DNA of 64,000 nt from Sipunculus nudus (lineage: Eukaryota; Annelida; Sipuncula; Golfingiida; Sipunculidae): the NCBI GenBank assembly GCA_026874595.1, contig CM049306.1, positions 43,834,019 through 43,898,018 of the forward strand, given 5' to 3'. Positions 25,541 to 60,397 of the stretch are shown in pieces. Position numbers and translations under genes: made by a program. Numbering within the stretch: position 1 is the stretch's first letter; each line of letters opens with the position of its first letter. The notes below the pieces were generated by a model that was given only the letters and a program-made list of their open reading frames with translations, did no database searches and had not been told where the DNA came from.

Positions 25541-28500
25541 GTATGTGTACCAAGCTTCTCATCTTGGTCCTGTTTTATCCTTTTCAATAGGTTCATTATC
25601 ACTGTGTCAACATTAGCAGTTATATTTTCATCTCTTGTCCAACACAAGTCCTGTCTGAGAAGCCAATACTGACCCAATGCTGGTTCTTAAGTTGGTGCAA
25701 AATGAAATACTGGTCAATAAAATCAATATACACTTTACCTAAATCAATCCAATCTTGACACCAATTGTGATCCTTTTTGTATGACAATCAGACCTTGCCA
25801 CACCAATTCTGATCCTTTTTGTATATCAGTCAGACCTTGACACACTAAATCTGATCCTTTTTGTTTTTCAATCAGACATTCACACACCAATTGTGATCCT
25901 TTTTGTAAATCAGTCAGATCTAGAGACACCAATTGTGATCATTTTTGTATGACAACCCGACCTTGACATGCCAATTGTGATCTTTTTGCATATGAATCAG
26001 ACCTTGACACACCAATTGTGATCCTTTTTGTTTTTCAATCAGACCTTGACACACCAATTCTGATCCTTGTTGTATATCAGTCAAACATTGACACACCATT
26101 CTTGTTCCTTGTTGTATATCAGTCAAATATTGACACACCATTTCTGGTCCTTGTTGATTATCAGTTGGACATTGACACTTCATTTATGATCCTACTTCTA
26201 GATCAGTTGCACACTGCGACACCGTCTGTGATTAATTGTTGGGGCAGTTTTGGGGCTGATGTGGATTACAAGCTCAATAACATGTTAGCTAATAAATTGT
26301 GTCAATCACCAATTATGCTTTACCTGTGCACTGGTCTTGAATAAATTATGGACCATGCTTTGACCATTATAACGTCTTAAAATTTGTAAAAGCAAACACA
26401 CGCATGTATGTGCAGCATATGTATATATAAAATGGTTAATGGTGAACAAGTACTGAATGAAGTGAGGTGCTTTTTATATATCTCAGCTTATCAGTGTACT
26501 GTTCCTCAGCAGCCAATGAGTTTCTTATAATTTTTGTAAAAGTTAAGAAAATGGAAAATTTTTTTATCTGAACTGTCAGGTTTTGTTTATTATGGCTCTC
26601 AGAATTTTAAGAAAAAAATATGCAATTCATGATTATGCATCAGTCAGGGAATTTGAGCTTTTGAATTGTCGGCCTGCAATTCCATCCATACCTGCATAAA
26701 ATGCTGCCTACAGTTTAAGTGCCTATCAATTGCAAAATATATTTGAATATAGGAAATCATATTTAAATCTAGACTGGCCCAGTCCATGAAATGGTTAAGA
26801 CTTAATTGTTGCCTTTGACAGAGAAATCAAATGTTCTCTCACGGTTTTGTAATGCTTAGTGTTGGTACTGCCTCCTTGTTGCAAATTATATAACTATTTA
26901 CCATTCTGGCCCTCTTATTTAAGTTAAAAGAGCCACATGTACTGGTGCATAAAATCACACATTATCTACGCATTTAAGTAGCAAACAAAAATACTAACGC
27001 CCTGGCAGGGCTAATTAAATCACATTAATAGATTTCTTTTGTTTGATTAGGTGGTGTCAGGAATTGGTTGTAAAATCATGTTTGATGATTGAAAGAAAAC
27101 AAGACGACCAATGTAAGATTATTAATTGATTATTTTATATAAATGTACCTTCTGTTTTACCATGTAATCTGCTGTTAAAAATTATTCCTAAATCTCTTAA
27201 CTGATTATGAAAAAACAACCAATCATTGCTATAATGGATTAATCAGCACACATGTAACATTTGCGGGTGACAAATAATATAGTAAGCTTATTAACCTTAT
27301 AAATTCTGAATGCTGATATACAGGTGAAGATACAGTCCAACCTGTCTGAACCACCACCAGTAAAATGCAGGGAACTGGCTATAACGACCACTGGATATTA
27401 AACCCTTTTGAAATTCCATTATATTATCTATAGATAAACCCTGTGAAATGTGACCACCATGCTATTACAGATTTTGGGCAGTTTTTCCTGACCAAAGTGA
27501 TACATTAATTATAAATTGACCTGTCTAATGCGGGCACTCTTTTGGCTACTCCTTGACCAGTGCTGACTGGTCGGTTTATTGCCAATGAGTGAAGTCGCGG
27601 GCACTTGTACTGGCTCACTGTTTTATTAGTTTGCTTGTGTACAGCACACAGACTGGTGGTTTCGGTAACCCCTGGGCCAACACTGGACATGTTGCACTAG
27701 TGTGGCTACAAGCTTAACATTTTAATCAAATGTATGCCAATTCATTTCATTCATATATCAACACATAAAATTACACATATAAGTACATAATTACAAAATA
27801 CATTTAACACAAAGATCTTTCCCTTTTACAAAATTGTATCTAATTGATGGCCTTAAAGGTGGTCTATTTTGTATACTTGCGTCATAAATATGTCATCTAG
27901 GTTTGTGCCTTTCCTAAATTTTTACAGTACCTGTCTTATAAAACCACCTTTTTAGCCCAGTCCCATGGTGGTCCCATGAGACAGGTTCAACTGTATACAC
28001 TTAAACTGTTAAAGATGTAAAGAATTTAATATTATCTTTTCAGAAAGGCAGCTGGGCTTGTGCACAGGCCTCAAGCAGTAAGAAGATAAATCACAACAAA
28101 CACATCACTGATAAACTTGAGGTAATGCTACACTCATTGCAATAGTACTGCTGTTGTAGCTGTGCATAGTTTTAAGTATTGCTTCTGTAATCTGTATGTA
28201 ATGCTCTGTGTGTGCAATTTGTCAATACTTTATTTGCAGTATTAGTTTACTCAGAGTACATTTTATGATTGATTAAACAATATCAAGCAGTTTGAGACGT
28301 TGTGGCAGAGGGGTTGGTGTTTTGCATTTTAACAACAGGTGTCACCACCTACTTGCAGTTATTATATAATGGTAAGGCAGGATCTAATTTTGTCATATTG
28401 ATTGCATACTCTGAGTATGAAATACTTGTCCTTACATACACATGTACCTACAGCCACATCCTTCATTAGACAGATAGAAATTTTAGAACCCTTCTAAGTA

Positions 28501-29045: not shown

Positions 29046-32000
29046 GATGAAACAAAATTCTATGACAAACTTCACAAGAGACCAGTGCTGTCCAGTGTTT
29101 GCAGTTTCACTTGTTTAAAATTAAGTCCCCAGATGTCAGCACTGCAAACCACAAAGGGCATGTGAAGGTAGAGGTAATTTTGATGACACACCTTTTTATC
29201 AGAAAATATGTTTGAATTCACAGGTTTCCAAGAAATATATATGTCTTATGTTATAACATAAAGGCTTAAGTGGTGTCTTTTTATGGACAGAAATCAGTGA
29301 AAAATTCAGCAGACTCAGTGATCTATTTTGTATATGAATCTGAAATATTAATAAAAAATTTTTGAAGATATTAAGATAATATAGGTTGATGTGTTCATGT
29401 AGGATGTATATCCATTAGAGTATTATGTGTGATTTTTAACCTGCACAAAGCAAAGGTTATTGTTTTCACTATATCTGGAGATGATATCACAGATATTATT
29501 GAAAATTATCATATAGGTTGGCATTGTGAAATTTTCCAAGAAGTTCAATTTTGGTGTAAATCCAAACATGAATAACCCCAGAGAGAGTGTTTTATGGGGT
29601 TATATAGCACATATGTTTACACTAGGACGTCGCATGTGATGATATGGCTATCTTTAGAGTGCAAGTCATGTTGTCACAGTGGACAGTGACCTCACTCCAT
29701 GTGCCATTTCCCTGAAAGGTGTCAGTAAACCAACGTACATTCAGTGGGGGGGGGGGGGCATGTTTTTAATGTTTGCTATGTTTATAGTTAAGGACAGCAA
29801 TTCCACAATGTACAGGGTGTTTTCAAAATATTTTCAGTTAAAAAGGTTTCCAGGTGTAACACAGTTTTAATTAACATTCCATGGCACCAGCTGTCTTCCT
29901 ATCAACTTTCAACACTATCTTCTGCACATATCAGATGCTTTTTTAATTGTGAAATGTTTTGAAATCTCTAAAAATAAAAAAAGAGCATCCTGCCTTTGGA
30001 TACATATTGTTTGTGATGCAGATGATATAGATAAAAAGTCAGTCCAGGGCAATGGCATGTGTACTAAGATTATACTATCAAATTTTAGGTAAATTGGTAT
30101 TTTTTTTTCATATATAGGAAGCCAAATCATTGCAAGGAGTTGGCACACGATTAGCCGATAAAATCTGGGAGATCATGGAGAGTGGAGAGTTACAAAAACT
30201 GAATGAGCTGACATCCAGTGATGAAGTCAAGGCTATCAGTCTGTTTACAAACATCTGGGGTGTTGGGGCCACAACAGCACGCACATGGGTTCAGCAGGGC
30301 TTGCGTACATTAGAAGATGCCCACAGCAAAGCAAATTTGACTCGTCATCAGAAGATAGGGCTGAAGCATTACGATGATCTGCTGGATCGTATGTCACGGA
30401 ATGAGGCTGGAGAGATTGAAAAAACAGTAAGTTATATTTTTTTACAACCATTAGCAAGTCAGTACACTTCCAATGCAGCGGTCACTCTAAATTTGTTTTA
30501 GAACTCATTCCACTCAACCACTGCTTTCAGTAGCTGGGTGTGCTGTTTATCCACATGAGGGAGTTTGCACAAGGCCAGAAATGTTTTGACCATTGAGAGT
30601 GAAGTATCACTGACTTCAACTGTGGTTATACCTATTATACCCAGCTCATTGGTCAGAACATTCTTGGCCCTGTGCCAACTCCTTGGTGGTGATACCCTGC
30701 AAATGCAGCTCTTAAAAGCAGTGGATATGTAGGAGTTCGAGAACAAATGTAGTGTGAACAGTGTGACTCTTATGGAGCATAAGATGATATCTATCGAATC
30801 TATAAAAAAATGCAGATTTTAAAGGCATACTGTTGCACTCTATGGCTTACTTCCTTAATCTTCATGACTAAAAGAAATAATTATTTCAGAGATAACCTCT
30901 TTTTTTGTGTGCTCCATTGAATCAACCAATCATCTTCATACATTTGTCACATGACCAGATTCCAGTCAAAGCACCTTTCCTCTCCATTATGCCATTTTCA
31001 TGTGTAGAACTCCTAATAAACTTTCGTATGTTGTTTTTAGTGTGTATTACCATCTTATTTTTTCCGCATAATAAAAATGGCTGTTTGTATAAGTTTGCTT
31101 TATTCATGTTTAATATGTCCACAGAATTACCCAAGGTAACATTTGTCATGTGATACTTCTTTACCAACAGGTGAAGGATGCAGTCCAGAAAATCAACCCT
31201 GGGCTGATTGCCATGGCGTGCGGGTCGTACCGTCGAGGTAAACCAACTTGTGGAGATGTGGATGTGTTGATAACCCACCCAGATGGACATTCACATAAAG
31301 GAGTATTCAGCAAGCTCCTGTCTGCTCTTAAGGACACAGGTAAGTCAAATCTTATCTTGCTTGTCTGCATGTAATAATATTACCTGTAGCCTAATTCTCC
31401 CTTTGATACATTTACTGAGTTACTGTAATGTTTACAGACATTGAGACCAAATACTGATACATAGGATATACATATAAAGAGAGATACACACATATACATG
31501 GGAGAAATCTCCAGTGGTCTACAGTTATGAACCACTTAAGGATTTTCCATTCTGTTTGTGAGGCCAAGATGACACACAGACTTGTAGGTCATACATGGCC
31601 AGGGAGGGTTATTTGGTTGCTTTTACCTCTTTTTCAGTATTGAGACAACTTACAATAAGATTTTGTGGTTGGCTTCATATTCTTTAGGCTGACATTTTAT
31701 GAATTTATAAAAAAAATATATGAATTGTATTAGATTTTATGAATTTATGAAAAATTATATGAATTATAATAAATTTTATGAATGTATAAAAAATATATGA
31801 ATTATAATAATTTTTATGAATTTATAAAAAAATATATGAATTATATTAAATTTTATGACTTTATGAAGAATAATATGAATTATAATAAATTTTATGATTT
31901 TTGTAAATATAATATAAATTATAATAAATATAATGAATTTTTGAAAAATTATATGAATTTTAATAAATTTTATGATTTTATGAAAAATTATATGAATTTT

Positions 32001-35000
32001 AATGAATTTTATGAATTTTAGAAAAATTATATGAATTTAAATAAATTTTATGAATTAATGAAAAACTATATGAATTTTATGATTTTTTGAAAAATGATAT
32101 GAATTAAAATAAATTTTAAGAATTTATGAAAAATTATATGAATTATAATAAATTTTATGAATTTATGAAAAATTATATGTTTCTTCATTTTGAACATCTC
32201 ATGAGGGTTTCATTTTCTCAACCTTATCAGAGTCAATCAGATCTTAGTGAACCAGTGTTTGCATATATATAAAATTATACTTTATTCATACATATCCTCA
32301 TTCACTTCTGCATCTGCTATAACTTGTGTCACAGTCAATAAACCCCCTGTTATAACTGCATGTTTTGACAAAAAATTAATGTTGTTTGGATGGGCCAGAT
32401 CCGAAAACCTTGATGGGGTGTCCGTTTCCTAAGGGTTTCTATTTCCGATTGTTTCCCATTCACAAATTTTGCAAAAATAAAATCTTCATGAATTAACACG
32501 CAACTGCAGTATTCTAAAACATAAGCTGCTTTGGTAAACTTCTTCTCCATTTGAATAACCTGTTGATATTATTAACTTATGCTTTGGTTTGTATTTACAT
32601 CACATATAGTCCAGCATACCATACCCCTAATCCTGGTTACTCTGCCCTCATTTTCCTTTATTAAATGAGCAAAAGACATTCACTATCTGCCTTACTCTTG
32701 ATGATTTAAGAGTCTACCAAACACTCAGAGTAGCAGTATAAGTGTAACATGTCACTTCAACATCAGCTAGACAAACCATTTAATGTTTGCTCTTTAATTA
32801 CACTGTGTGTGACAAGAATGTGTGGAAAACTATAGACTCAGCATATTGATAAGTCTCCATGCATATGTATTTAATTTCTCTCCATTAAAGAGCATGTCTT
32901 CCAGTGGTTCTCCGATTTTCATCTTTGTCATGCAGTATGCAGGAAAGGTTGATGGTCATCATTGAGATGGGATATAAGCAGTGGTTATTTATTTCAAGTT
33001 TTCCATTGTGAATGTGACAAAATAGCCATCTATGATGAGTAAATATTGAAGTTATTATACTACCTTAAGGAGATACTGTTTTTCACATCCTGCAAAAAAC
33101 AGAGAGAATTTCAGTACTTCAAGGAATAAGGCAAAAAGAAATAAAATGAACGGAATTGGCAATGAATAAGATATATACATATTGTGTCAGAGGCAGATAT
33201 ATTAAGAAATATATTGAGTGTAAAGAAAGAAGACTAAGATGTAGTTTCAGTTTCAGTGACACACAACTGGGCATCAATAATTGTATATTTTAGTTTATAT
33301 TGTTATTATAATGCATTTTGCTAATTGTGATAATAAATGTAAACTGCCATAGAAATACTAGTGAACCAATGCTCTTGAATTGAGGTTACTATGACTAATG
33401 GCCACAAGACAGGTTCAAATTATTCTTTGAAGCAGGGGCAGCTCCCAAATTTAGGAAAAAGGAGGGGTCGAACCCAGGAGGACTAATGACAAAACCTAAA
33501 AAAAATATCCCCAGATCCAAAAAAGGGAGGGCAACAAAAATTGGTCTGAAACCCTTAAAATAAGGTTGCGGTGGCTTCTAAAAGGGGGGGGGGTTTGAAT
33601 CTGCTTCTGTGTATAGACTACTAACTCTTAATACAGTATTCAGATACTAGTATCTTTGCATTAGCTAAGCTGGTTGAATGAGGGATATGACTCATCAGTC
33701 TTTCTTTATTCTCATAAAGGACAGGGTTCATCGAAGGCACATGCAGCAGACAAGTATTCATGGGATGAGAGTACATGAAAGCTACAGAAGCCTGTGAATG
33801 GCTTATGGGGGTGCCAAGTCACTGCTACATAATTCATGTCGTCCTCAGTGAGGCACTGTACATTTACAAATAAGATACTCATGTCTAACATATTTACATG
33901 GTGGATTATCTGGGTATTTACACATGTACATGACCATTCAAAGATATGAACCTGACTGACCCAGTGGAAGTTGTAGATAGTTTACATAGCACTGATTAGT
34001 ACATAATTGTGTATTCCCAAGCGTGAAGGGTCCCTATCCCTGCTTCCATTGCTGTTCTGAAAGAAATACAATAACTGGTCCATTCAAAAGTACATAGAAT
34101 ATAGGCTTTGGCAACAGCATGTCCTGAATAATGTTTTTCAAATGTTTGCTGGTGGGTGTGGTGAAACAGGCATAGAACTCTACAGTTCTAATAAAAATGA
34201 GACTACACTTATGTAAACTAAGTTTGGCTCTCAGAAGATCACATACTGCTGTCAAGGCAAAAGAGTCCCACTCAGATCCACAAAATTTAATGGGGTCTTC
34301 CCTGCATATGTCTCACCCTTCCACAAAGCTTTATAGAGATTAGGTCATCGCTTTTGCAGGGATCATCTCAGATGGACGCTGTTCAGAAAGACGCCATTGT
34401 ATCACATGGACGCTGTTCATTTGGACGCCATGAAAATGGACGCTGATCCTATAGACGCCTTCGTATTATAAGCCCAAACACCATTAAGACCCCTGAATAC
34501 AGGCCATATAGCTGTGTATATATAGTGTTATATATTTCCTTTAAGTGTGTATATGGTGTGATTGAAGATGGATGTTAACAAAGATGTCTTAGAGACCATC
34601 GTATTATAGACGTCATCGTATATTGTTTCCTTAGATTTGAGACCTAATTTAATATAATATTTATTAATACATATGTGATATTTTATATCATATACTGATA
34701 TCGTGCGAATGAAACGGAATGCTGATCATATAGAAGTTATCGAATATAGACGCCATTGTCTGCATGCATCCTTCAGAAAGACTCCTAATGACAAGTCATA
34801 AAAATAATTCACATTCTTATTAATTATTTCCATAAAAAGAAGTCCCCATTTTATAATAACCATGGTATGTTTTGAATTATATTGTGCGTATATCGTGCGA
34901 ATGAGGGTCTTTTCATATCCTGTGAATGAAAAGGAACGCTGATCATGCAGACATTATCATATTACAGACGCCATCGTCTGCATCGTCCCTTCAGAAAGAC

Positions 35001-41000: not shown

Positions 41001-43395
41001 CCTGTTTGGGGTTGTTGTGTAAACCAAGACAATTTGTACATAGTTCATTGAAGCACAATGTATCTATACTTTAAGATACATGGGAAACATGTTTCAATCC
41101 AAATTTCTTGAAATGTACATGGTTAACCTAAGTTTTATCACAGCACTATGAAACATTTTATCTCATTTCAGGCTATTTTCACTTGATAATTTATGGTAAC
41201 TCCTTAGGTCAGCTCAGTGTCATAGTTTAATCACTTCCTTCTTTTATATCCAGTGCTAATGATCAAGTATATTTATATACCCACAATAAAACTGCTTCTG
41301 TCCCTTACAGGACCCTTTTTCTGTGTAAATTATGAGTGCAATATATCACATACTTATCACAATAACATATTGTTGATTAGAGAAGGGTTATTTTGACAAG
41401 AGCTTTATTACATTATCAACATGGGGTTTTCATGCTGACAGATTGGTTTGCATTAAGGGCTTAATTACAATAAAATTCATTATTTGGTTTTGTCAGGTTG
41501 GTTTTATATTACAAGCTTTGCGTTGCCTCTGTCTCTTATGACAGTCTTGTTATGTAACCTTTGAACAAATTCTTACTCATGTTGTAATGATATCATCTGT
41601 CCTTGCCTGTGTTATGACAAATTTGATGATATCATGCACATATGGTATCCTGCTTATGTAGTATACATGTAATACGACACTGATTTTGGAGAAACAGATA
41701 TTTCCCAGGATTCACTGATCATTCTTACTGGTAATACGACTATTCGCTTTGTCATCTGTGACTAAGCTCATCTGTTAAGCACTTTAAGATATTTGCCTGT
41801 TTATGATCAGATTGTATATGCAGTTCTATCTTTCAATGATTGATAGCTAGACTGGATTACTGGCTGCAGATGTTGTATTTATTCCATAGCTTCACATTAC
41901 AAGTCAGGGAAAGGCAGTCGCACACACACACACATATCAACTCATAAAAAAATGAAAAATGTGCATCATCCCCACAAATACATAACTAATATTATTTCAA
42001 AATCATCAGGGACTCATTGTTTACTTGTCTTTTTTCATTTAATTCACAGACAACTAATAGTTTTTCTCATCAAAGGCTGTATGGATTTGCAGTATAAATA
42101 TTTAGCACCTGTATAGGTGAAAGGAGGTAACTTGATTAATTGCCATTGTTGTCTACATATTTGACAATCTATCAGTGTTTTTTGTCCATTTATAGCACTT
42201 TTAAAAGAACTATCATGAAAGTGTATTATTAATTTTTAAAGCAAAAGGATGTACATCATCCCCAGATATATTCCTATAAAAAATTAAAAAGCACTGGATG
42301 AACAATTTTTCATAATCGTTGCTGACAACTGAGGAAATAAAATAGAAATTTGAAGTCGTTGCCAGGCTGATAGAAATGATTAATAAAAATTCATGGAATC
42401 TCAGCATAGAAGCTATATAGCAGCCATGGCAAATTTGTAAACTGTTAAGGAGTTTTGTGCCCAGTAGGAGGCATGTCCATTTTGAAAATGGTTCAATATT
42501 GTTGGAAAATTATGCCTGAAGTCCCTTTATCCTATAAGAATTCTCTGCAGGTTTCACAACTGAAGTGAATTATTAAATATCAAGAAGTTTCTTGTTTGAA
42601 ATGGAATATTTCTGCAAATTTATCACATGGAATTATCACATGGGAAATGTTCACAGGTGAGTTTTGGGTCATTTGACATTTATGTACAGAAATTATTGTT
42701 TCTAGTCTCACATTATTACACAGAAAAGAAAATGCTCCACAGAGGTGGGGGATTTGCTGCAAGAATATCTGTTGGGAAAATAGCTCATTTTGAGCGAATC
42801 TGTGAGCTTACGCGATTGGGTATATAGCGTCGTCCGTCGTCAGTTCATATCCAGCTTATGTGTAAGATAAATCCTTGAATAAAATATATCTGTATTCTGA
42901 TCTTGCTTTCAATAGGCATGGGACTCTGAGACCAATTAACAAATATATAGCGGGAAGCTGATATTTGTCTTGAAAATTTACAGGTCTATAGGGAGAATAT
43001 TTCCGATTTGTAGGAAAGACGGACATGGCCCGATTTCTTTAAATCATACACATAAGAATGATTAAGTTTAAATCCATTATCAATAATGCCTTTATGAATG
43101 TACATTTAGCTTTTTCATTATTATTAGTTCACCCAAAGATTTCTTTTAAGGGATCAATACAAGAACAGCAATCAGCTACGTTGCCGAGAATTTCTGTTAA
43201 TTTAGGTTTATGGTATTATGTGCCGCCGAAAACAAGGGAACCGCGTAGCATATGCTAATTTGCTGGCATATATATTCTAATCCGGATTGCGTCGGACGGA
43301 AGAAATGACAACGGACAAAGACCTTTACCTATAGCTCAGCATTTGCTGAAAGTTAGCCGATCTATATAGATATATATTCATATATATATATATAT

Positions 43396-43442
<47 letters not shown>

Positions 43443-46400
43443 CTTGGTTCTTGTTGTAAAATAAAGACACGTACATGTTATCTTTTTAGCCGAGACGTTA
43501 ATCTGATTTACAGCAAAGATATTGGTTTAATTGGCTCAATATAATTTAAATAAGGTTTCAATTTGGAATCTGTGACTTTCAGGTTCGGAATATTTAATAT
43601 GTGCTGTTACGAACAGTTGAAATATTTGTTTTTTTAATGTGAAAAAGATCAAATTATTTCAGCCGTCTAATATCCGGACCCCATTCCCATGCACCCACTT
43701 ATCCATGTACATGCATGTGCACATTCATGCATACTTCACGTGAACGGATATATAATTACTCAGCAGGTTGTAAATATATATACTTTATTAAGTACATGTA
43801 TTCGGAGAATCGTAGGGTTCGAAATGTACAAAATATGCATACAATATAAGTCTAATGTATGCTCTGGATTCCGAAAAAAATAAATTATACAACATATGCC
43901 ATCAAAGTCAAAACCATTTATGAGCATATTATTTAATATTTACAGACTGTTTAATATATACAAAATACAAAATATGTATGTTTATGTTGACCTTTCCGAT
44001 GGAAATATTTGTTGTGAACACTACAGAGAAGAAGCACATTGACATTGTTTCTATAAAAATGACGGAAATCTTAGAAATCTTATACGTATTTTTCCAAGTA
44101 CGGAAATTTCGTTCCTCTGTGTCTTAATGCATGGCAGATGATTTAGTGAGGGGAAACTCCATACACTATAAAAATCCTGAGTAGGATTAGAGGTGATCCA
44201 GTAAAAACACATTAAATTTCGGGATTCCACCGGACAGAGAACGCCACAGGAGGCTGCAAAATCCCGGAAGTATTGCGATAGTACTCCGGAAGCCTCGTTT
44301 TCATGATAACCACTGGGGACAATCTTGTTTATACAATGAACATGGCTAGGGAAATCATTACACGTGTTGAAGTAAGGCAAAGGTAGCTGCTGCCGTCTCC
44401 AATCACATCAACCTATGTATGTTCGTCACGACGTTGGTTTGTGATCACCTGGAGTGCATTCATGACGCACTCTCAAGGGCGGTTCCCCTGAGGATCAATT
44501 GAGGCCGCATTTCCATGGTTACAAAATCGTGTTATGTAGAGGAATGATTATTTATACAGAAAAGCTGTTCTCTTACATAGTTGCAGGTAGAATAACATCA
44601 GATATGTTTTACATATTATAAAAAAAAGGAAAATTCGTTCAACATATTGGTCAACCAAATTCTTTACTAATTATAATAATTATTAGTCCAATTAAGGCTT
44701 GAGCATCAGATGGCTACACACATAACAACATTACAATTATAAATTCAATTGTTCTCACATAATTTTTCCAAAAATATTCAAGCAGTATATTTAAAATTGT
44801 GTGGTCGCTAAAACACTCGACTGTGACAGTTATATCCATTGCTCTGAGAAAAATGTTGTACGCCGTGGCGCTGTAGGACTGTCCGTAGTGACGATACGTC
44901 TACTGATTCAAAAATGTTGTGCACTGCGTTTCTTCTTGGGGACATGACTCTTGGTCTCCTTCCGGGTGTAACTTGTATTTCTCGGACGCTGTCCAGTCCC
45001 ATCGCCGCTGTGAGACTGGCTAACGAGTCCAGGTACATATCTTGTAAGTGGATTTTCTGGTCGTCCGTCAGATCGGCCAGAACATCTGCCTTCCCATGAC
45101 GGCGTCGCATGTTAAAGGTTGCGCTCAGAGGGCTGTCTAGATCGTGTGTTGACATAATCTGCAAAGATATATACATAACATATAAAAATATATCATTGAG
45201 GTTTATACCATTGAGGTTTCATGACTGAATCGTGTACGGGGATTCACAGCCGATACTCAGCCTGGTACCAGTTAGGGTTGATGCATATTGAGGCTAATTA
45301 GACTATATGACCATAAATATTAGCAAGTTGCACGGTGCATAAGCGGATCAGTTGACAGTTTATATATGTAGTTTCGGGTGACAAACAAAAGCCCAGCCGG
45401 ACAAAAGCCCACCCTTAAAAGTGCAGATCAGGAAAAAAGCACTCCCTTGACTTAAATATAAAATAAAATGATATTTTTCCCAAAATATATTGATGTTTTT
45501 CTAATGATTTTTAAACAGCCACAGTGGGCTCTAGTTCGGTGGGGGTTTTGTCCTATATACACCCGCATTTTTTAGTTTACATACTCTTTGCCATCCGGAA
45601 TCTTTTGACAAATAAGGTGGCTAGATAATATTCCAAAACATAGTCGATCATTTCTTAGGCGTAATTTCGAGCCCTAAATAAGGTGACAAATGGTTAAGTT
45701 GGATTCTAATCATATATCATATGCCAGACAGAACTTCCAGTACAAAGTTCACGGCCTGTATATACAGATTAACGCGAAGACCATGCAAGTCTTATGTAGG
45801 CGAAAGTTACCAAAACTGTCATTGCAGTCCGGCAAGTTCAATAATTTAATTTCGCCTAGGCGTATGTGCACTAATATCCCGAAGAATTCTGTCTTATTCA
45901 TTTAACTAGATTTCCCAATTTGTGCCTGGCGAAGTATAGGAATAAGATCCATTCGCGCCCCAGTCCGCAGACATGTAGACACAAACCGATAACAAATATT
46001 ATATATACATATGTTACATTTTTTCCCCTTTACGTTATAAACTACACCTGTATGTGTTGGAACATGTATTTAATTGAATTATATATAAAAAATCATGGAA
46101 ACGAATGACAAACCTTCCATATGAATTAAATTTAAATTTGTTTAAATTGCCATATATGTTTAATATAGACCAATTTACCAATATATACACATAAAACTTT
46201 CGGTAATTTCACAGGCCACATATGATTTCATATGTAGCAGAACTATATTGGTATACTCAGAATTTCTATATTTTGAGTTATTTATCAGTAAACTAAAAAA
46301 AATCAAACAACCCTTCCTTTTTTTGGCAACCATTGTGAACAGTGTACACCGAAAATGTGTAGTTATATGATGATTATACTATATTTAGGATTTTGTTATT

Positions 46401-47889
46401 GTTAACATCTTAATCAATGTAGTTTCTTGTGTTATAAACTACATAAATTACCAAATTACCATGGTATGACTCTATAATAAAAACATGAAATTCCGTTTTA
46501 CGCTGTTTCCTTAATTACTAACTTATACCATAATCTTTTAATGAAAAAAAAACATAAGCGTATAAATATACTGACCTTACTTTTAACCGCGAACGTTTCA
46601 AAAAGACCTATATTCAGTCCTACGGGCAGTTGTATTTTTATCCCTTTTCCCTCTCTCGGAAGGTTAGATGTGTCCGTTGAAAGTTTAAAGCCTCTGTGGG
46701 AAAGCTGTTTCAGTCTGCGGGTATTTGCCGTAATCCTTTAGCAGAGCTGTTACTTCAACGCTCACACCATGTACTAACGTCTCAGCTTCTAGTACGTCTT
46801 CTGCCTTGGCCGCACGCACTCTATACTTCAACCAACCGTGAGTTTGTTCCTTATTGCAACTTGATGAATCGCATACGTAGGGCGGATTTTCCCGTGACGC
46901 ACGTTGGCAAGTCCTATTACTTCAGAGCATCGACCAGTTTTTGAAGTATGTGGCTTACAACGAGTGTGTACGTGTGATATGTGTGTTATATATACGTTAC
47001 TGTAAGCGAGGATTGACTGTGACTGGTGAAGCGTTTTGATTGGCCGCGGCTCCGTTTGCGTCACTGGCTGACCTGGTTGGCGCGTTCAGCGTATTCCTTG
47101 GGTGTATGTACACTCACCCTTAGAAATGTGATGCAAAAACTGAGCTTAGTAACCCAATAACACAGATGTGTTTGCATGTCCCGATGACTGTAACCCCACA
47201 GTAACGCTGCCCCCGTGTCCATAATAAAGACCTCGCCTCAAATCAAAGTTCATACATTTACATGTATATATGGACTGAGACTTGCGTTTTCATTAGACGA
47301 ACACGGGAGTAGTTATTCCGTGTTGCGCGTGTATGCAGGATGTTTGCTTCACAATATATCACAATATATATAATCAATTAACGATTTCTTAGTTACTTTC
47401 ATATAAGCATGGTATTTAGTAGTACATATATATATATATGTGTGTATTCAGGTACATTCGAAAACAATCCATCCACGGAATAGTAACAGCTTTTAATGTA
47501 CAATGAGCTGTGCCATTGTTTAGCTGCGACAGTGCACTTTTAGTGGCAGTTCAGTAGCATTTTCACATGCTAAAACCTCATAGGTGATAAAAATACTGCA
47601 CTTAAACTCTAGACAAATTAGGTGAAAATATATATATGCGTGTCCTGTGTTTAACATGACCCCTTACAATTGAATTTTACACGGGTATTAAACGTGTTTT
47701 TGACACGCCACTTTTCAAGAGTTTCCTAGTCGCCAGAATACGTGTTTTTCACATTTTACACGTGAAATAATTTGCTGGATGGCCGAAGTGTATAGGAAAT
47801 GAGTAAGAGCGACGCCATTTAGATATAGACTAACTTATTTATTATCACATGAATAAGTTATTATGTTTACACTTTACCCCATATATATA

Positions 47890-52209: not shown

Positions 52210-54765
52210 AAACAAATGTTCTCGATTAGCAATAACTACTTACAACTCGGCCACTAAAGCTGGCCGTCAACAAAGTTTTCATAAAAGGAATTTAAAGAAG
52301 AACTTTACATTTAAATATGGCTTCGGGAACAATTATTAACGCTGGAAGATAAACCACGTTTTGTCTGAATGCACAAAGTACTCTTCAGTAGTTCAAAAGG
52401 TGCATCTTTTAAAAAAATATATACATAAATATTAATCAGGCAAAATTCTGCCAAACTCTTTATCATTGGATCATGGCATCTCAAATATACAATGGAACAG
52501 CTTTTATTTTTCATTGTTTCTTTATATTATCAGAAAAATTATGAATGTTTTTTTAGCTCAGCTGACTTTGTAAAATATAATGATGAAGAACAGTCTTAAT
52601 ATCTTTTCACACACGGACTGTTATTTTGCTTTATATTTTATGACTGTGCATTTATTATGAGTATCAACATTTGTATTCAGTCAAGATAAACCGATAGCAT
52701 GAGAAAATAAACATGGATGTGCAAATGTATATCTACCTTTAAATGATCGCGCCCAGTCAAAACATAGCTGCCGTTATCAGCAAAAACACAAGTATACCGC
52801 AGTGCCGTGATGTAGCCGATGTAGAACTTATACATGTTTATGCTGCACCCAAAATCTTGAAAATCTTTAATAGACGTCTTGGCATTATCAGTATTTCCTT
52901 ATACAATGCCATGAATAGAGATTTTACGTCAAGAGCACACAATTGCAGACTGTCCTTCCGTGCGAGGACTGGTGGAAGACAATCATGTAGTTTTCATTAA
53001 TTCCCTGGTCTTAAGCTGTGACGTTTATATTTCATGTGATTATACACGACTGCCCTAGAAAATTGTAAGAAATCGTATCGGAGGATGTCGTAGGTAACAT
53101 TGCCGCATCGCATGTGAGGGTTTAATTTATATATTCAGACGCTAGTCTGCATGTACAATTTTTTTACAGTATAGTGGTTGTCCCTTCTAACCAATTGAAA
53201 CTAAATGCCTGATTCTTAGTAACCCTTGCATTTTTAGCTGAGCTGACCGAAAGTCATCTGAGCTATAGCGATCCCCCTCTGTCTGTTGTCCGTCTGTCTT
53301 TCTGTCTGTCTGTGCGTTAAACAGGCACAAATCGTAACCACTGGACCTAGAATTTTCCTACTTCACATCCAGGGATGTCACTGAAAATCTCCATTGAAAC
53401 TGAAATTAGGTCTCTATTACCCACATCCTCTGAGAAATGGGGCTCAGAAGTAACCCCCCCCCCTTTGATACAAAAGCACCAGTATCTGAACAACTAATGA
53501 ATGGATCACCATAATTAGTTGTATGCATATTAATCATGGAGTGTTTGAGCATTTCCTGTAGACTGGTGGCGCCACCTGCGTTATTTTCAATTTTATACGC
53601 ATTTGTTCTCCATTTTTTAGACCTTCAAGGCAGCAGTTGTCCGTTAACAAGGCACAAATCGTAACCATTGGACCTAAAATCTTCCTACTTCACATCCAGG
53701 GATTTCACTGAAAAAATCTCCATTGAAACTGAAATAAGGTCTCTGTTACCCATATCCTCTGAGCGATGGAGCTTAGAAGTACCCCCCCCCCCCCCAGAAT
53801 AATTAAAAATTAGTTACAAAAGCTCAAGTATCTGAAAAACTCCTTCATTGATAACCATGAATCTTTGCATGCATATTGAAAATGAAGTGTTTCATCACTT
53901 CCTGTAGACTGGTGGCGCCACCTGCGTTTTCATTTTCATTTTTTTTCGCATTTCTCCTCAAATTTTGAGACCTTCATGGATGTGGTTGTCTGTTAACAGA
54001 GCACAAATCCTAACCATTGCAGCTAAAATCTTCTCTTTTGACATCCAGGGAGGTCCATGAAAAATCTCATTGGAATCCTGAAAATAGGTCTCTGTTACCC
54101 ATATCCCCCTAAGCTGGGGGCTCAGAAGTAACCCCCCCCCCCACACACACACCCTAGAATAATTAAAAATTTGTTACTAAAGCTCCAGTATCTGAACAAC
54201 TAATGCATTGATCAACATGATTCTGTGCATGCAAATTCATCATGGAAGTTTCATCAGTTCCTGCAGACTGATGATGCCACCTGGATTTTTTTCAAATTTT
54301 ACACATTTTTTTCTCTGTTTTTTTTCGATACCTTCAAAGATGTGGTTGTCTGTTAACAGGGCACAAATCGTCACCATTGCACCTAGAATATTATAACATG
54401 ACATTTAGGTCTATGCTACCCAAATCCTTCGAGCTAAGCTTCAGTTGAATGGGGATACCACCTACAAAATTTGGTATTCAGATGATAAAATTCGTTTTAT
54501 GAATGTCTTCTTAGTCAGCTGTGCGTCATGACCCATGGATCACTTTTTTTTTACTCTGACGAATCATAAAAGGTTTCATAAAGATTAATAAGTCACGTGG
54601 TTCTCGTTGCCAGGTTTCATCACAGATGACCTTGTGACACAGGAAGACAACGGCGCGCAGAAGAAATACCTCGGCGTATGTAAACTTCCCGGAGAAAACA
54701 GAAAGGTAACGAGGAAGATTGAGGTTTCATGCATCTTATAATCTTATAATAGTTAATAAACAAGG

Positions 54766-57800: not shown

Positions 57801-60397
57801 CCTCATAATAATCATTGTCTAATAAAGAAAACCTTTTTACTTAAATTTACTAAACTCAACTGACAATGCCACGATTTTATTACAAATCCTGTCCTTGTTA
57901 AGAGTACTTTTAAAGTAAGTTGATATAATCATTATCAGTCACCAATTACGATGATTAAAGTGAAAAAAAGACAATGTATTGTATTTCGCACAGGATATGT
58001 CTGTTTTAACAGCACAGGTACGCCCCATATCCCTGGATATCAGCTCCGTCGTCGGTTAATTATTTCGAAATCTTTTTTTTTCTAATTTTTTTTTACATAA
58101 TTTCTACTTAATAATGAATAAAATTATATGTTTTATTTTTGTATGCAGCATAGGAGGCTCGACATCATTGTGGTGCCATACGATGAATACGCCTGTGCCA
58201 GTATGTACTTCACCGGCTCAGCGCACTTCAACCGGTCCATGCGCCACCTGGCGGGTAAAATGGGAATGTCTCTATCAGAGCATTCCTTAAACGTCGGAGT
58301 CGTCCGAAAGGTATCATTACGTTCATCTTATCTGAAGTCTCCTTTGTTAACAATAGCAGGCGCGGAACCCGGGGGGGGGGGGGGGGGGGTCGAGACAGTC
58401 AGGTTAAAGTTTTTTTGTTAATCTCATTTCTCCATTGCTAATTAAGACATTTCAATTAAACATAATACACTGATGTACAGTGACAATACCTAGCACAGCT
58501 ATAAAAAAGTTTTTATCATAAATTTAGGGCCAGTAATAAGACAAAATGTGTATAGATCCGAACCCAGTTCAGGGTAAAGTTTGGAAGTGGCTAAAAAGCC
58601 GGCAAGATGAAGGCAGATTAGTCCACAGGCCAAACAGACGGCAGGGAAAATTGACCTTTCCGGTAGTCTCGCCCACAGGGTATACTGCTGGCAAATGAAT
58701 GCATGCTCTTTTTTTCAAAATTTCAGTGTGATACTCAAGACTTTCCATTTTTATTTTGACAATAAGCTGCCAATATAGACTAGTGCTGACTTACCAAATC
58801 AGATATTTTGCAGGTTTATATGTAAAGATAACCATTTGGTGTGGAGATTTCTTGCATCATCTCACAACACAATAGGCTCAACAACTTTATTGGGGTGTGT
58901 TGTAAGTTTTTTGATAACCTTTGAGCAAGTAATAAGCTGATCCTTGTCCCATTTATTTGACATTTCCCGAGTTGACATTTCATTAGTGTATAAACTGATG
59001 TTACGCTTCACACTGGATTACCTTTAATCAAAGAATCTGCATTTCGTTTGATATGACATATCATGAGTTGTTTGTTATTTCACACATTACCCATTGTTTG
59101 CTCATAAGTGTATATAAGCAACTGATATGCCAGTCCACTTCTGTTCATTTCCTAAAAATCTACGTTAAACTACACTGTTAATACCTTTTAATACCTACTC
59201 AACATACTTATTACATATAAACCAGCAAAATATCTGTTTTGGCAAGACAGCACTATATTGTCAGCTCATTATCGAAATAATAAGGGAAAGTTTTGAGTTT
59301 TAATTGTAAAACTCTGAAATAGAGCATGAATTCTTTTGCCGGCAGTTTAGTTTTTGGGCTACACTGCCGGCAAGGTCAATTTTCCCTGCCGGCTGTTTAG
59401 CCTGTGGACTAAACTGCCGGCACCCTGCCGGCTGTTTAGCCACTTCCTTAAAGATTTTGTTTACTCTTTATAACTGGGCAAGTACTTACCCTAATGCTTT
59501 TATATTTCACATATGTATTGCATAGGGCATCAGAAATCCCCCGAATGATTTAGGGATCAAAAGGTCAAGGTAACAGGGCCCGGTTGTTCGTGAGCTAGTC
59601 TGGTTAAAGTTTTTGTTAGGCTCATTACTCCACTTGCTGATTAAGATATTTCCATAAAACTTAGTAGACTGATGTACAGCGACAATACCAAGCATACCTA
59701 TTAAAACTTTCCATAAATTTAAATTTCTGGACCAGTAATTTGCACTTTACGACGAATAAACTTATAGTACAGATCCCAGCCCAGCTCAGGTTTAAGTTAA
59801 GGGATAACTCTTTATAACTCAACAAGCACTCACCATGTAGCTTTCATATTTCATATATGTATTGTATAGGGGCTTTGGAATGCAACAAATAATTTGGGGG
59901 TTAAAGGTCTAAGATTTTCTTAATGCCCCGTACCGCCGAGTTGTTGTCCTCAGACGACTTGTTATGAACCATTGTCCAGACTGCCAACTGGGTAAAAGGA
60001 CATAAAAAAATTATCCGCTTGATAACAGAAATTTTCACTAATGGCATACAGGCCCCTCACTATACTGAGATATCTTAATATGGTATTTCCCTCATATAAT
60101 AAAAATTTTTCGTATTAGCTTTAGAGTCGTCAGCAGTGTCTGTATATGATTAGACTCTGTGATTGAAAAAGTCTACCAGTTTAATTTTTTAAGTTATAAT
60201 TATTCTTTCAGTGATAAGCTGTATTTGTCCAATGCTAAAATATATTTCTCTTTATTTATACTTATGTATTGTCGTATGTGCTGGCACAGGGAGGTGAGAA
60301 ATTAAACAAGGGGACCCCACTACCAACACCGACCGAGGCTTCAGTTTTCGAGCATCTTGGGTTAAAATACAGGCCACCGGAGGAGAGAGACCACTGA
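24650..60397 (+). CDS. POLL: DNA polymerase lambda, complete 8-exon gene
   Basis: This is a family X DNA polymerase that fills short gaps in base excision repair and non-homologous end joining in the nucleus. The exons 24650-25540, 28044-28121, 28808-28915, 30118-30426, 31171-31339, 54614-54705, 58149-58310 and 60290-60397 join in frame to 638 residues (human about 575; the linker is longer here). Visible parts are a basic patch PSKRRK (5-10), a BRCT domain (about 69-161), an acidic Ser/Pro-containing linker (162-297), and an 8-kDa lyase domain with HhH motifs [11 protein letters not shown] (364-374) and [10 protein letters not shown] (405-414). Lys374 matches the Schiff-base lysine of the family. 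Metal ligands are Asp491 and Asp493 ([10 protein letters not shown]) and Asp554 (RRLDIIVVP), and the sugar-selecting YFTG is at 569-572. The order BRCT plus Pol X with LPTPTE near the C-terminus separates it from pol beta, mu and TdT. It looks intact. Confidence 0.97.
25741..26200. repeat. ~42-bp minisatellite in POLL intron 1
   Basis: About eleven diverged copies of a unit close to cacaccaattgtgatccttt followed by ttgtatatcagtcagacctt. The unit is 42 bp, a multiple of three, so several frames stay open across copies and give false repetitive ORFs on both strands. Confidence 0.85.
26201..28043. other. Rest of POLL intron 1
   Basis: AT-rich intronic sequence without recognised features. Confidence 0.5.
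28044..28121 (+). CDS. POLL: POLL coding exon 2
   Basis: Residues 298-323 (26 codons, phase 0 at both ends), between cag at 28041-28043 and the donor gtaatg at 28122. It begins [18 protein letters not shown], matching the short tract just before the 8-kDa domain in vertebrate pol lambda (a KWVCAQPSSQK-like segment). Confidence 0.93.
28808..28915 (+). CDS. POLL: POLL coding exon 3 (start of lyase domain)
   Basis: Residues 324-359 (36 codons, phase 0), between acag and gtaaga. It contains [17 protein letters not shown], the family signature of the first helices of the 8-kDa domain, which binds the 5'-phosphate side of a gap. Confidence 0.95.
28955..29046. repeat. (TA)n(CA)n microsatellite in POLL intron 3
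   Basis: TA repeats to about 29000, then CA repeats at 29001-29040, then TA again. It lies 40 bp after exon 3. Short ORFs on both strands here are repeat artefacts. Confidence 0.95.
30118..30426 (+). CDS. POLL: POLL coding exon 4 (HhH motifs, fingers)
   Basis: Residues 360-462 (103 codons, phase 0), between tatag and gtaagt. It carries the first helix-hairpin-helix with the presumptive lyase Lys374 and the second helix-hairpin-helix at about 403-418. The segment [20 protein letters not shown] (441-460) links to the palm. Confidence 0.96.
30498..30733 (-). pseudogene. Coding-like fragment antisense in POLL intron 4
   Basis: The minus strand of this 744-bp intron holds an open stretch of about 70-80 codons. 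It can be read from a ttgcag acceptor (around 30702-30697) to a TAA at 30498. The translation looks protein-like, with balanced residues and few rare codons: [18 protein letters not shown], then [20 protein letters not shown] and [18 protein letters not shown]. No ATG suits a full gene, and the intron leaves no room for more exons. It may be a fragment of an inserted gene or element. I do not recognise it. Confidence 0.25.
31171..31339 (+). CDS. POLL: POLL coding exon 5 (palm, two catalytic Asp)
   Basis: Residues 463-518 plus the first base of codon 519. It contains [20 protein letters not shown], with Asp491 and Asp493 binding the two catalytic metals. The donor gtaagt at 31340 leaves the only split codon (phase 1) in the coding region. 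It opens the 23-kb intron 5. Confidence 0.96.
31690..32180. repeat. AT-rich minisatellite in POLL intron 5
   Basis: About a dozen copies of a roughly 38-bp unit close to tatgaattataataaatttt followed by atgaatttatgaaaaat. A 79-codon frame of Tyr, Asn, Phe and Lys through it is an artefact of the repeat. Confidence 0.85.
32181..33432. other. POLL intron 5, unremarkable stretch
   Basis: AT-rich. No gene or clear repeat recognised. Confidence 0.45.
33433..33610. mobile_element. Small palindromic element (MITE-like), copy 1
   Basis: It begins caggggcagctcccaaattt, contains gaacccaggaggactaatga and aaaagggggggggg, and ends aatctgcttctgtg. The interior matches the copy at 51101-51341, but the terminal inverted repeats are more decayed. 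Confidence 0.65.
34255..34358 (-). repeat. 3' part of an older dispersed repeat split by the 3.9-kb element
   Basis: Read on the minus strand it continues gcaaaagcgatgacctaatc, then aaagctttgtggaagggtga and cattaaattttgtggatc. This is the second half of the element whose first half lies at 38266-38350. Confidence 0.6.
34610..35115. repeat. ~220-bp direct repeats inside the 3.9-kb element
   Basis: Two units and a partial third share cgtgcgaatgagggtctttt-like sequence, ggaacgctgatcat, gacgccatcgtctgcatc and ccttcagaaagacgcctaat. Confidence 0.7.
35371..35487. repeat. Three copies of a 39-bp unit inside the 3.9-kb element
   Basis: Unit close to aggcactagctgacactgta followed by cccagaatacgtttattga, three nearly identical copies. 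Confidence 0.9.
36238..36462. repeat. Pyrimidine and purine arms with a possible SINE-like core
   Basis: A (CT)n-rich arm at 36238-36270 and a (GA)n-rich arm at 36366-36462 could fold back. On the minus strand the core between them includes ggactcgattcccatcgg, which loosely resembles a pol III B box. Open frames on both strands are low-complexity artefacts. Confidence 0.4.
38266..38350 (-). repeat. 5' part of the older dispersed repeat
   Basis: On the minus strand it reads gacctctgccaaggaggtta, tgtttttacccatg and gttagcaggattatacaaaa. This is the start of an element I remember as widespread in marine invertebrate genomes. Its continuation lies beyond the 3.9-kb insertion. Confidence 0.6.
38351..42784. 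other. POLL intron 5, AT-rich stretch
   Basis: No coding exon recognised. Only short CA and T runs (for example near 41920 and 39990) stand out. Confidence 0.45.
42785..43375. mobile_element. ~590-bp element with 'agctcag' type inverted ends
   Basis: The left end, atagctcattttgagcgaat with gcgtcgtccgtcgtcag, is mirrored at the right by cggacggaagaaatgacaac and ctatagctcagcatttgctg. The end type resembles those at 8.58 and 53.24 kb. No coding capacity. Confidence 0.5.
43376..43440. repeat. (TA)n microsatellite
   Basis: TA dinucleotides with an internal cac interruption. Confidence 0.9.
44051..44413 (-). other. Open frame downstream of the antisense gene, possible 3' UTR or terminal exon
   Basis: About 400 bp beyond the antisense stop, the minus strand is open for roughly 120 codons with fairly balanced composition. 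It includes [17 protein letters not shown] and [14 protein letters not shown], and ends in TAG at 44051. It has no good ATG near its 5' end and an in-frame TGA just above. It could be 3' UTR, an alternative terminal exon or chance. I do not recognise the translation. Confidence 0.2.
44808..45155 (-). CDS. Antisense gene in POLL intron 5: unrecognised 115-aa basic protein
   Basis: I do not recognise this protein. On the minus strand a strong acceptor (pyrimidines then ttgcag) is followed by att and an ATG at 45155. The 115-codon frame ends in TAG at 44808. G+C and CpG are clearly higher than in the surrounding AT-rich intron, and third positions favour G/C, as expected of real coding sequence. 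Visible parts are a short N-terminus, a basic patch MRRRHGK (16-22), an amphipathic stretch [20 protein letters not shown] (29-48), a second basic patch [12 protein letters not shown] (64-75), then [20 protein letters not shown] (78-97) and the C-terminus CHSRVF. No signal peptide or membrane segment is apparent. The acceptor implies at least one upstream exon, probably a noncoding one near 46.6-47.1 kb. The frame stays open through the acceptor, so an upstream coding exon is also possible. Confidence 0.6.
   Translation of the reverse strand: MSTHDLDSPLSATFNMRRRHGKADVLADLTDDQKIHLQDMYLDSLASLTAAMGLDSVREIQVTPGRRPRVMSPRRNAVHNIFESVDVSSLRTVLQRHGVQHFSQSNGYNCHSRVF
45375..45560. mobile_element. ~180-bp palindromic element
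   Basis: gacaaaagcccaccc at the left and ggtgggggttttgtc at the right are inverted copies. The left end also has an extra acaaaagcccag unit. It lies just upstream of the antisense coding exon and has no coding capacity. Confidence 0.45.
45561..46559. other. Likely intron of the antisense gene
   Basis: AT-rich sequence with no recognised exon. It separates the antisense coding exon from the GC-richer candidate promoter. Confidence 0.35.
46560..47110 (-). promoter_or_regulatory. Candidate promoter and 5' noncoding exon of the antisense gene
   Basis: This is a GC- and CpG-richer stretch inside the AT-rich intron, 1.4 kb upstream of the antisense coding exon. Read on the minus strand it has a CCAAT box (attgg on + at 47039-47043) next to a GC-rich ccgcgg and a CRE-like TGACGCAA. 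Further along, donor-like sites gtaagg (46580-46575) and aag|gtcagt (46575-46570) could end a leader exon. No convincing reading frame is present on either strand, which suits a promoter plus untranslated exon. Linking it to the coding exon is inference. Confidence 0.35.
47480..47775 (-). repeat. Dispersed repeat rich in acgtg motifs, copy 1
   Basis: Shares tttcacatgct, taggtgataaaaatactgca and gtgtttttgacacgccactt with the opposite-strand copy at 61655-62080. Confidence 0.65.
47893..47972. repeat. (TA)n(AG)n G-run compound microsatellite
   Basis: TA repeats to 47930, AG repeats to about 47961, then 11 G. Confidence 0.95.
48924..48978. repeat. (TA)n microsatellite
   Basis: Uninterrupted TA dinucleotides. 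Short ORFs across it are artefacts. Confidence 0.95.
48979..50521. other. POLL intron 5, unremarkable stretch
   Basis: AT-rich with short TA and CA tracts. No coding exon recognised. Confidence 0.4.
50522..50592. repeat. (TA)n microsatellite
   Basis: About 35 TA units. The 168-codon minus-strand frame that runs through it owes much of its length to Tyr-Ile repeats and is not a credible gene. Confidence 0.95.
51101..51341. mobile_element. Small palindromic element (MITE-like), copy 2
   Basis: Terminal inverted repeats are aggcctcaggggcggaccc at the left and ggatccgcttctgggcct at the right. The interior holds ccaacccaggaggactaatg, shared with copy 1, and G or C homopolymers (51134-51152, 51274-51291, 51307-51323). 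It has no coding capacity and no clear target duplication. Confidence 0.75.
51570..51623 (+). other. Candidate 18-codon exon in POLL intron 5
   Basis: A pyrimidine-rich acceptor (ttttttaag) and a donor (gtgaga at 51624) bound 54 bases that translate as [18 protein letters not shown]. The frame stays open to a TAA at about 51785. The VRxWxKxWVT pattern resembles the N-terminal motif of BCL7 proteins (VRKWEKKWVTV), but only over about ten residues. It does not belong in POLL, because exons 5 and 6 join seamlessly without it. It may be a decayed exon of another gene or chance. Confidence 0.2.
52139..52206. repeat. (TA)n microsatellite
   Basis: About 34 TA units in POLL intron 5. Confidence 0.95.
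53236..54480. repeat. ~345-bp tandem array ending 250 bp before POLL exon 6
   Basis: The left edge, tagctgagctgaccgaaagt with a gtctgtctgtc run, is a dispersed-element terminus. Then about 3.4 units share ggcacaaatcgtaacca (53326, 53653, 54002, 54362), tctccattgaaactgaaa, a C run and gtagactggtggcgccacct. GGTGGCGCCACC is intact at 53565 and 53911 and lost in the third unit (gatgatgccacc). Confidence 0.85.
54614..54705 (+). CDS. POLL: POLL coding exon 6
   Basis: The second and third bases of codon 519 plus residues 520-549, after ttgccag at 54611-54613. It reads [20 protein letters not shown] and CKLPGENRK, the same length as the human stretch. The donor gtaacg is at 54706. Joining it to exon 5 across 23,274 bp restores the frame exactly. 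Confidence 0.95.
54768..54828. repeat. (TA)n microsatellite in POLL intron 6
   Basis: About 30 TA units, 60 bp after exon 6. Confidence 0.95.
55043..56615. mobile_element. Block flanked by inverted 'gagtcc' arrays
   Basis: cgagtccaagtccaatttt at about 55119-55137 is mirrored by aaaattggacttgattcccc at about 56586-56605. Both sides carry further cgagtccgagt copies. The block encloses copy A of the 1.1-kb duplicated sequence. The inverted ends suggest a mobile unit, but no target duplication was identified. Confidence 0.4.
55290..56462 (+). repeat. 1.1-kb duplicated sequence, copy A (POLL intron 6)
   Basis: It runs from a tgtattgcctt region to ggctttcgctatcaccgaat. It aligns along its length with 62676-63708, sharing tatgaatgctaa, aaatccacccccg, ggttgcaaagttcaagtaca and aatcaaatcatgga. 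Confidence 0.8.
56616..58148. other. Rest of POLL intron 6
   Basis: A 20-base G run lies at 57198-57217. The stretch from about 57240 to 57720 is slightly GC-richer, with two short ORFs (57306-57506, 57513-57716), but neither is recognisable. Confidence 0.4.
58149..58310 (+). CDS. POLL: POLL coding exon 7 (third catalytic Asp, thumb)
   Basis: Residues 550-603 (54 codons, phase 0), between atgcag and gtatca. [11 protein letters not shown] holds Asp554, the third metal ligand. [13 protein letters not shown] (569-581) forms the nucleotide-binding pocket, and [15 protein letters not shown] lies in the thumb. Confidence 0.97.
58361..58389. repeat. Fragment of the MITE-like end with a 19-base G run
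   Basis: caggcgcggaacccggg resembles the left end of the 51.1-kb element (caggggcggacccagg). The G run is 58371-58389. Confidence 0.4.
58390..59915 (+). repeat. Tandem duplication of a ~330-bp unit, first copy interrupted
   Basis: Unit 1 is split into 58390-58582 and 59448-59575. Unit 2 is 59585-59915. They share tctggttaaagttttt, gactgatgtacag, gacaatacc, ctctttataac and catatgtattg. The interruption is the 865-bp TIR element. Confidence 0.75.
58583..59447. mobile_element. 865-bp TIR element in POLL intron 7
   Basis: Inverted termini of roughly 115 bp: ggaagtggctaaaaagccgg at the left and ccggctgtttagccacttcc at the right, with shared inner parts (cagggaaaattgacctt against aaggtcaattttccctg). 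A TAAAG direct repeat lies at or near both edges (58575-58579 and 59449-59453). The interior has no coding capacity, so it is non-autonomous. The second unit of the surrounding duplication shows the uninterrupted site. Confidence 0.8.
60290..60397 (+). CDS. POLL: POLL terminal coding exon 8
   Basis: Residues 604-638 and a TGA stop at 60395-60397, after ggcacag at 60283-60289. It reads [20 protein letters not shown] and ends EERDH, where the human protein ends ERDW. The TPTE(x)xVF and LGLxYRxPxERD pattern is the normal Pol X C-terminus, so the protein is not truncated. Confidence 0.95.

Follow-up and report, generated by a model that had tools for sequence, protein, structure and literature searches.

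The question raised by this locus, part of a 64,000-nt window of the Sipunculus nudus genome, is whether a reading frame lying antisense within a long intron of POLL belongs to a nested protein-coding gene and, if so, to what kind of protein. The initial annotation had proposed an antisense gene for a protein of no recognised family inside a 23-kb POLL intron, and the position and integrity of the frame are borne out. All 115 codons are present on the minus strand, and from stop to stop 136 codons are open (45218–44808) in the ORF reading of the window. On the plus strand Pfam places the BRCT domain of POLL in 24650–25669, the fingers domain at 30118–30498, the palm at 31114–31371 and the thumb at 58122–58418, and tblastn with a fragment of human POLL aligned exons at 30190–30429, 31165–31341, 54613–54714, 58146–58307 and 60293–60391. 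The host intron can accordingly be set approximately between the segments 31165–31341 and 54613–54714 (Table 1). The frame is wholly inside this single intron on the opposite strand, as a nested gene would be, and there is nothing unusual in that arrangement, since nested intronic genes of animals likewise may lie as whole genes inside one intron on the strand opposite to the host. Such genes are reported to be numerous in the genomes of a ctenophore, of primates and of some arthropods (PMC8527503).

Table 1. Features of the antisense locus and its host intron, in positions of the window (a slash marks a predicted splice boundary)
Feature	Position	Strand	Detail
POLL host intron, ends approximate	31342–54612	+	From Pfam domains and tblastn; about 23.3 kb
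Possible variant poly(A) signal, TATAAA	44551–44556	-	Putative; about 250 nt past the stop
Candidate CDS, 115-codon frame plus stop	44808–45155	-	ATG at 45155, coding 45155–44811, stop 44810–44808
TC1-like core, 25 residues (protein residues 74–98)	44862–44936	-	11/25 identities, ungapped, with human TC1
Acceptor-like tract, tatatatctttgcag/ATTATG	45159–45178	-	93.0 percentile of all AGs, approximate matrix
Modelled intron of the nested gene	45159–46575	-	Predicted from donor- and acceptor-like sites; alternative 5′ end 46580
Modelled non-coding exon 1 (5′UTR)	46576–46960	-	Start at 46960 predicted from TATA position
ATG-poor stretch	46576–47176	-	3 ATGs in 601 nt; where promoter and 5′UTR would sit
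Candidate core promoter	46986–47043	-	CCAAT at 47043, TATA-like at 46994/46992

Several properties of the frame that might have argued for a gene, namely its length, its GC and CpG content and its codon use, fail to separate it from chance. Frames of 136 codons or longer occurred in 70 of 200 dinucleotide-preserving shuffles of 34–58 kb, as well as in 8.2% of 500 dinucleotide shuffles of 44–48 kb, and length is thus not significant. Codon use had been described as balanced; the period-3 signal of the frame is weak (1.67, shuffle p = 0.13), with 296 of 2,547 windows equally high, and does not set the frame apart. Three short POLL exons were no better than the antisense frame by the same measure (1.44, 1.27 and 1.38), and the large first POLL exon reached 7.80. 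Residue composition was matched by 28% of 3,000 nucleotide shuffles. High GC and CpG, also put forward as a gene mark, did not hold up, because CpG observed/expected runs from 0.54 to 1.20 per kb throughout 43–64 kb, so that a value near 1 does not single out the frame, whose 1.03 is ordinary there. These lengths, periodicities and compositions are what could be expected of a chance open frame in intronic DNA, with its splice and promoter strings coincidental and its family match, described below, a 1-in-60 accident.

The distribution of CpG is of separate interest for the host gene. In a scan of 24650–60400, CpG makes up 0.057 of all CG/TG/CA dinucleotides before a single sharp change point at 42658–42828 (best 42795; lnL gain 97) and 0.171 after it, and this boundary at about 42.8 kb falls inside the POLL intron, approximately 2 kb past the stop of the antisense frame. 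The pattern suggests that a putative germline gene-body methylation of POLL ends at about 42.8 kb, though three POLL exons follow. CpG across the window, strongly depleted in parts and near expectation elsewhere, would fit mosaic gene-body methylation rather than the vertebrate pattern; a mosaic, gene-body methylation has been described for the oyster (PMC4378273). Elsewhere in the intron, 31779–32036 is an extremely AT-rich repeat, with GC of 0.08–0.09, in which each strand carries open frames.

A gene model can be assembled around the frame. The acceptor upstream of it had been called strong; an acceptor-like site does stand there, but its rank is decent, not high, and an AG inside the frame (45007) stands at the 93.3 percentile. 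If this acceptor were used, the first base of exon 2 would be 45158, 3 nt ahead of the ATG. By an approximate matrix the donor AAAGTAAG/gtcagt, with its first intron base at 46575, ranks at the 99.0 percentile, the alternative AAAA/gtaagg (46580) at 97.9 and a further donor, TTCTAAGG/gtgagt (47117), at 99.8. Splicing from the 46575 donor would leave the main frame open into exon 1 with no ATG, and the modelled exon 1 holds three upstream frames of 2, 7 and 2 codons. A 136-aa form starting at 47177 and spliced through the 47117 donor is less favoured, as that donor lies above the CCAAT/TATA pair. The promoter-like, CpG-richer stretch with a CCAAT box that had been described is present (GC 0.45–0.46 and CpG observed/expected 0.94–1.17 in 46701–47200), but CCAAT and TATA-like strings abound in the window, with 50 of the former on the minus strand and 339 of the latter, an abundance that favours coincidence. 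Downstream of the frame, the first AATAAA is at 43789. Also within the modelled exon 1, at minus 46884–46901, the CRE-like string TGCGTCA is followed after one base by the κB-like GGGAAAATCC, a pairing noticed post hoc; the pattern GGGAAANNCC has 4 occurrences in the window, both strands together.

The region in which a promoter and 5′UTR would sit is poor in ATG. From 47176 to 46576 there are 3 ATGs on the minus strand versus 9 on the plus strand, and among 601-nt windows sampled every 5 nt, 0.11% of those on the minus strand had 3 or fewer and none on either strand had fewer than 3. Mononucleotide shuffling of the stretch gave 3 or fewer in 0.98% of 5,000 replicates (p = 0.01), a value to be read in light of the ends of the stretch having been picked after the fact. 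CGA is depleted there to the same degree. Taken by itself, the modelled exon 1 of 385 nt shows no significant shortage of ATG (minus strand 3, plus strand 4; as few in 3.7% of windows; p = 0.07 by shuffling). The stretch is compatible with a 5′UTR but is no proof of one.

The family closest to the frame is TC1 (PF15063; TCIM/C8orf4), its best Pfam match at E = 0.017 and 15.5 bits; as three frames were scanned together, the chance of such an E value is about 5% overall and 1.7% for this frame, which had been specified in advance. The Pfam gathering cut-off for TC1 is 27 bits, which was reached neither by the whole frame nor by its 44-residue C-terminal piece (E = 0.0087, 16.5 bits). Residues 73–100 of the frame align to model positions 22–49, or 28 of 75 model positions. 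Pfam confirms the human TC1 sequence used for direct comparison as PF15063 (E = 4.4e-30). Its own core, RKKAVGNIFENTDQESLERLFRNSG, is the counterpart of the core found here. Smith-Waterman alignment of frame and human TC1 returned this core as a single ungapped block. When the frame was shuffled 20,000 times, 9 shuffles reached the score of this block, and the frame had the best TC1 score among 2,149 window frames of at least 20 aa, no other reaching it. The frame and human TC1 have R-x-x-A-V-x-N-I-F-E-x-x-D-x-x-S-L in common, but as a test of the conserved NIFE core this is partly circular, the motif having been read off that very comparison, and the profile match is sub-threshold. The core match was missed by default tblastn of human TC1 against the window; with the two-hit rule off, it was the best TC1 match in the window (E = 0.025).

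Controls on this match point in both directions. Pfam matches at E ≤ 0.5 were found in none of 10 shuffles of the frame, a result which, with the shuffled alignment scores, counts against accident. On the other side, the match is at E = 0.017 only, one of 14 other non-POLL window frames gave a match at E ≤ 0.5 (minus 46498–46737, HTH_39, E = 0.2), and a human TC1 in which four residues had been masked hit tRNA_bind_2, an unrelated family, at E = 0.015, a chance match of the same size. A chimera of human TC1 carrying the 25-residue block of the frame scored 88.9 bits, versus 103.9 for the human protein and 44.2 with the block masked, and permuting the 14 non-identical core residues gave 72.3–87.1 bits, with none of 20 reaching 88.9; this test is biased upwards because the segment was chosen by the HMM itself. 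When the first 14 residues of the frame took the place of TC1 residues 12–25, the score was 86.0 bits, against 83.5–85.7 in 8 permutations, so that an N-terminal MSTxxxxSP likeness to TC1 has next to no profile support and was set aside (fixed-register p 0.02–0.06, post hoc).

The C-terminal half of TC1 is missing. The frame ends 17 residues past the core, leaving model positions 50–75 unmatched, and tblastn with the two-hit rule on or off found nothing of the C-terminal half (about 50 residues) below E = 0.64 in 36.0–47.2 kb. There is no good donor after the core, where the GTs score poorly, and the best downstream minus-strand candidate for a C-terminal exon, at 43520–43440, was rejected, being of noise-level E (3.3), preceded by stops and running into a TA repeat. 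Since the C-terminal half is missing and default tblastn misses the match, we speak of a TC1-like core rather than of a TC1 member. As judged from sequence, the frame appears to hold such a core, and membership in TC1 is not claimed below 27 bits with the C-terminal half absent; homology of the core with TC1 is a serious possibility, a little short of an even chance. The description of the protein as matching no family is probably incomplete, TC1 being its best family, though by a sub-threshold match.

Other searches gave weaker candidates or none. HeH/LEM (E = 0.15 for the whole frame, 0.039 for the C-terminal piece) and RHH_1 (E = 0.16 for one fragment of the frame) were both weaker than TC1 in Pfam. 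PDB sequence searches that took as query the frame, the human TC1 protein or an alignment of the two returned nothing below E = 0.2, and neither NCBIfam nor phage tblastn gave a match to the frame up to E = 1; homologues were likewise absent from viral and prokaryote contigs, as expected. No Rfam family reached gathering in 43.0–48.5 kb, no tRNAs were found in the window, and an origin in a transposon or repeat was rejected, with no second copy of 44.0–47.5 kb within the window at E ≤ 0.01. The predicted 115-aa protein contains 12 R, 2 K, 10 D, 2 E and 7 H. AlphaFold, given the single sequence, produced an unreliable model of it (mean pLDDT 46.6), in which helices of low confidence span residues 9–19, 31–51, 75–82 and 87–96.

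Compared with human TC1, the predicted protein is similarly small (115 aa versus 106 aa), and it differs in the position of the core, at residues 74–98 here and 32–56 in the human protein, in the absence of the C-terminal half and in its score below the family cut-off. According to PMC5349172, the cDNA of human TC1 maps without interruption, versus two modelled exons here; TC-1 is there said to be found only in jawed vertebrates, its origin being set between jawless and jawed vertebrates. PMC3506533 characterizes human TC1 as a basic, intrinsically disordered protein that has helical segments, the N-terminal half being disordered and helical propensity lying in the C-terminal part, and as competing with β-catenin for Chibby. 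By likeness to human TC1 the protein would be a small docking regulator and not an enzyme, an analogy weakened by the absent C-terminal half. No paper on an invertebrate TC1 was recognised among the literature search results listed, most subscription papers lying outside the search.

A resemblance to Kip/Cip proteins was also observed, between the NIFE core and the cyclin-binding segment of p27. The p27 sequence RNLFGPVDHEEL resembles 12 residues of the frame, and the p27 score was reached in 29 of 10,000 shuffles; p57 was weak (641 of 10,000) and p21 no better than chance (4,394 of 10,000). The frame differs in having His at the Arg of the p27 cyclin-binding motif and in lacking a WNFDF-like segment after the core. 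Membership in Kip/Cip was rejected, since p21 and p57 do not follow p27 and Pfam listed no CDI match at a maximum E of 10, with filters that drop most matches above about 0.1. Human TC1 itself shows in NIFENTDQESLER a likeness to the Kip/Cip segment LFGPVDHEEL, its scores being reached in 72 (p57), 328 (p21) and 403 (p27) of 10,000 shuffles. There is possibly, on weak sequence evidence, a distant link between these two families of disordered regulators.

Taken together, we tentatively favour, at a probability of roughly 0.4, a two-exon nested antisense gene whose product would be small, for the most part disordered and built around a TC1-like core. Transcription would begin near 46960, downstream of the CCAAT/TATA pair; a non-coding exon 1 would end at 46576 or 46581, and a 1.4-kb intron would be removed. 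Exon 2 would then open 3 nt ahead of the start codon and encode the 115-aa protein, which may be mostly disordered, with Arg-rich patches and the 25-residue core related to TC1/TCIM, and which might bind partners by way of segments that form helices, in the manner of human TC1 and Chibby. The proposal of a nested antisense gene is thus narrowly retained, but on grounds other than those first given: the main arguments of the initial annotation do not set the frame apart from chance, and it is the TC1-like core, the ATG-poor block and the donors that lend it support. Putative interference with transcription of POLL is possible.

A chance frame is given the same odds as the nested gene with a TC1-like core, in view of the masked control at E = 0.015, the match of another window frame at E = 0.2 and the lack of a significant ATG shortage in exon 1 alone. 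What accident explains poorly is that acceptor, donors, ATG-poor block, family match and open frame coincide on one strand, and a real coding gene of some kind is, on these predictions, slightly better than an even bet. Such a gene could also encode a lineage-specific protein unrelated to TC1, as originally proposed, given that the ATG-poor block and the splice sites are independent of the TC1 match and that this match is sub-threshold and without the C-terminal half; the shuffle frequency of the alignment score and the rank of the frame among all window frames favour a TC1-like core instead and make an unrelated protein rather improbable. Insertion into the intron of a decayed copy of a TC1-like gene, or of a fragment put to new use, would explain why the core alone is matched with no C-terminal exon, and is very improbable given the 136 open codons of the frame, its own acceptor-like site and the lack of any repeat copy in the window.

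TC1/TCIM is a subject of research on cancer, stem cells and inflammation. If the frame is a chance opening or an unrelated lineage-specific gene, the locus would represent noise or an ordinary gap in the annotation of nested genes. The gene with a TC1-like core could, in its strongest and more doubtful form, be an invertebrate short-form member of TC1/TCIM lying antisense in POLL, in which case the family would predate jawed vertebrates, its NIFE core would be the oldest part and the helical C-terminal half would have been added or lost later. Were this true, an invertebrate relative would push the origin of TC1 far back, and the 25-residue core could then be the ancestral working part of the protein.
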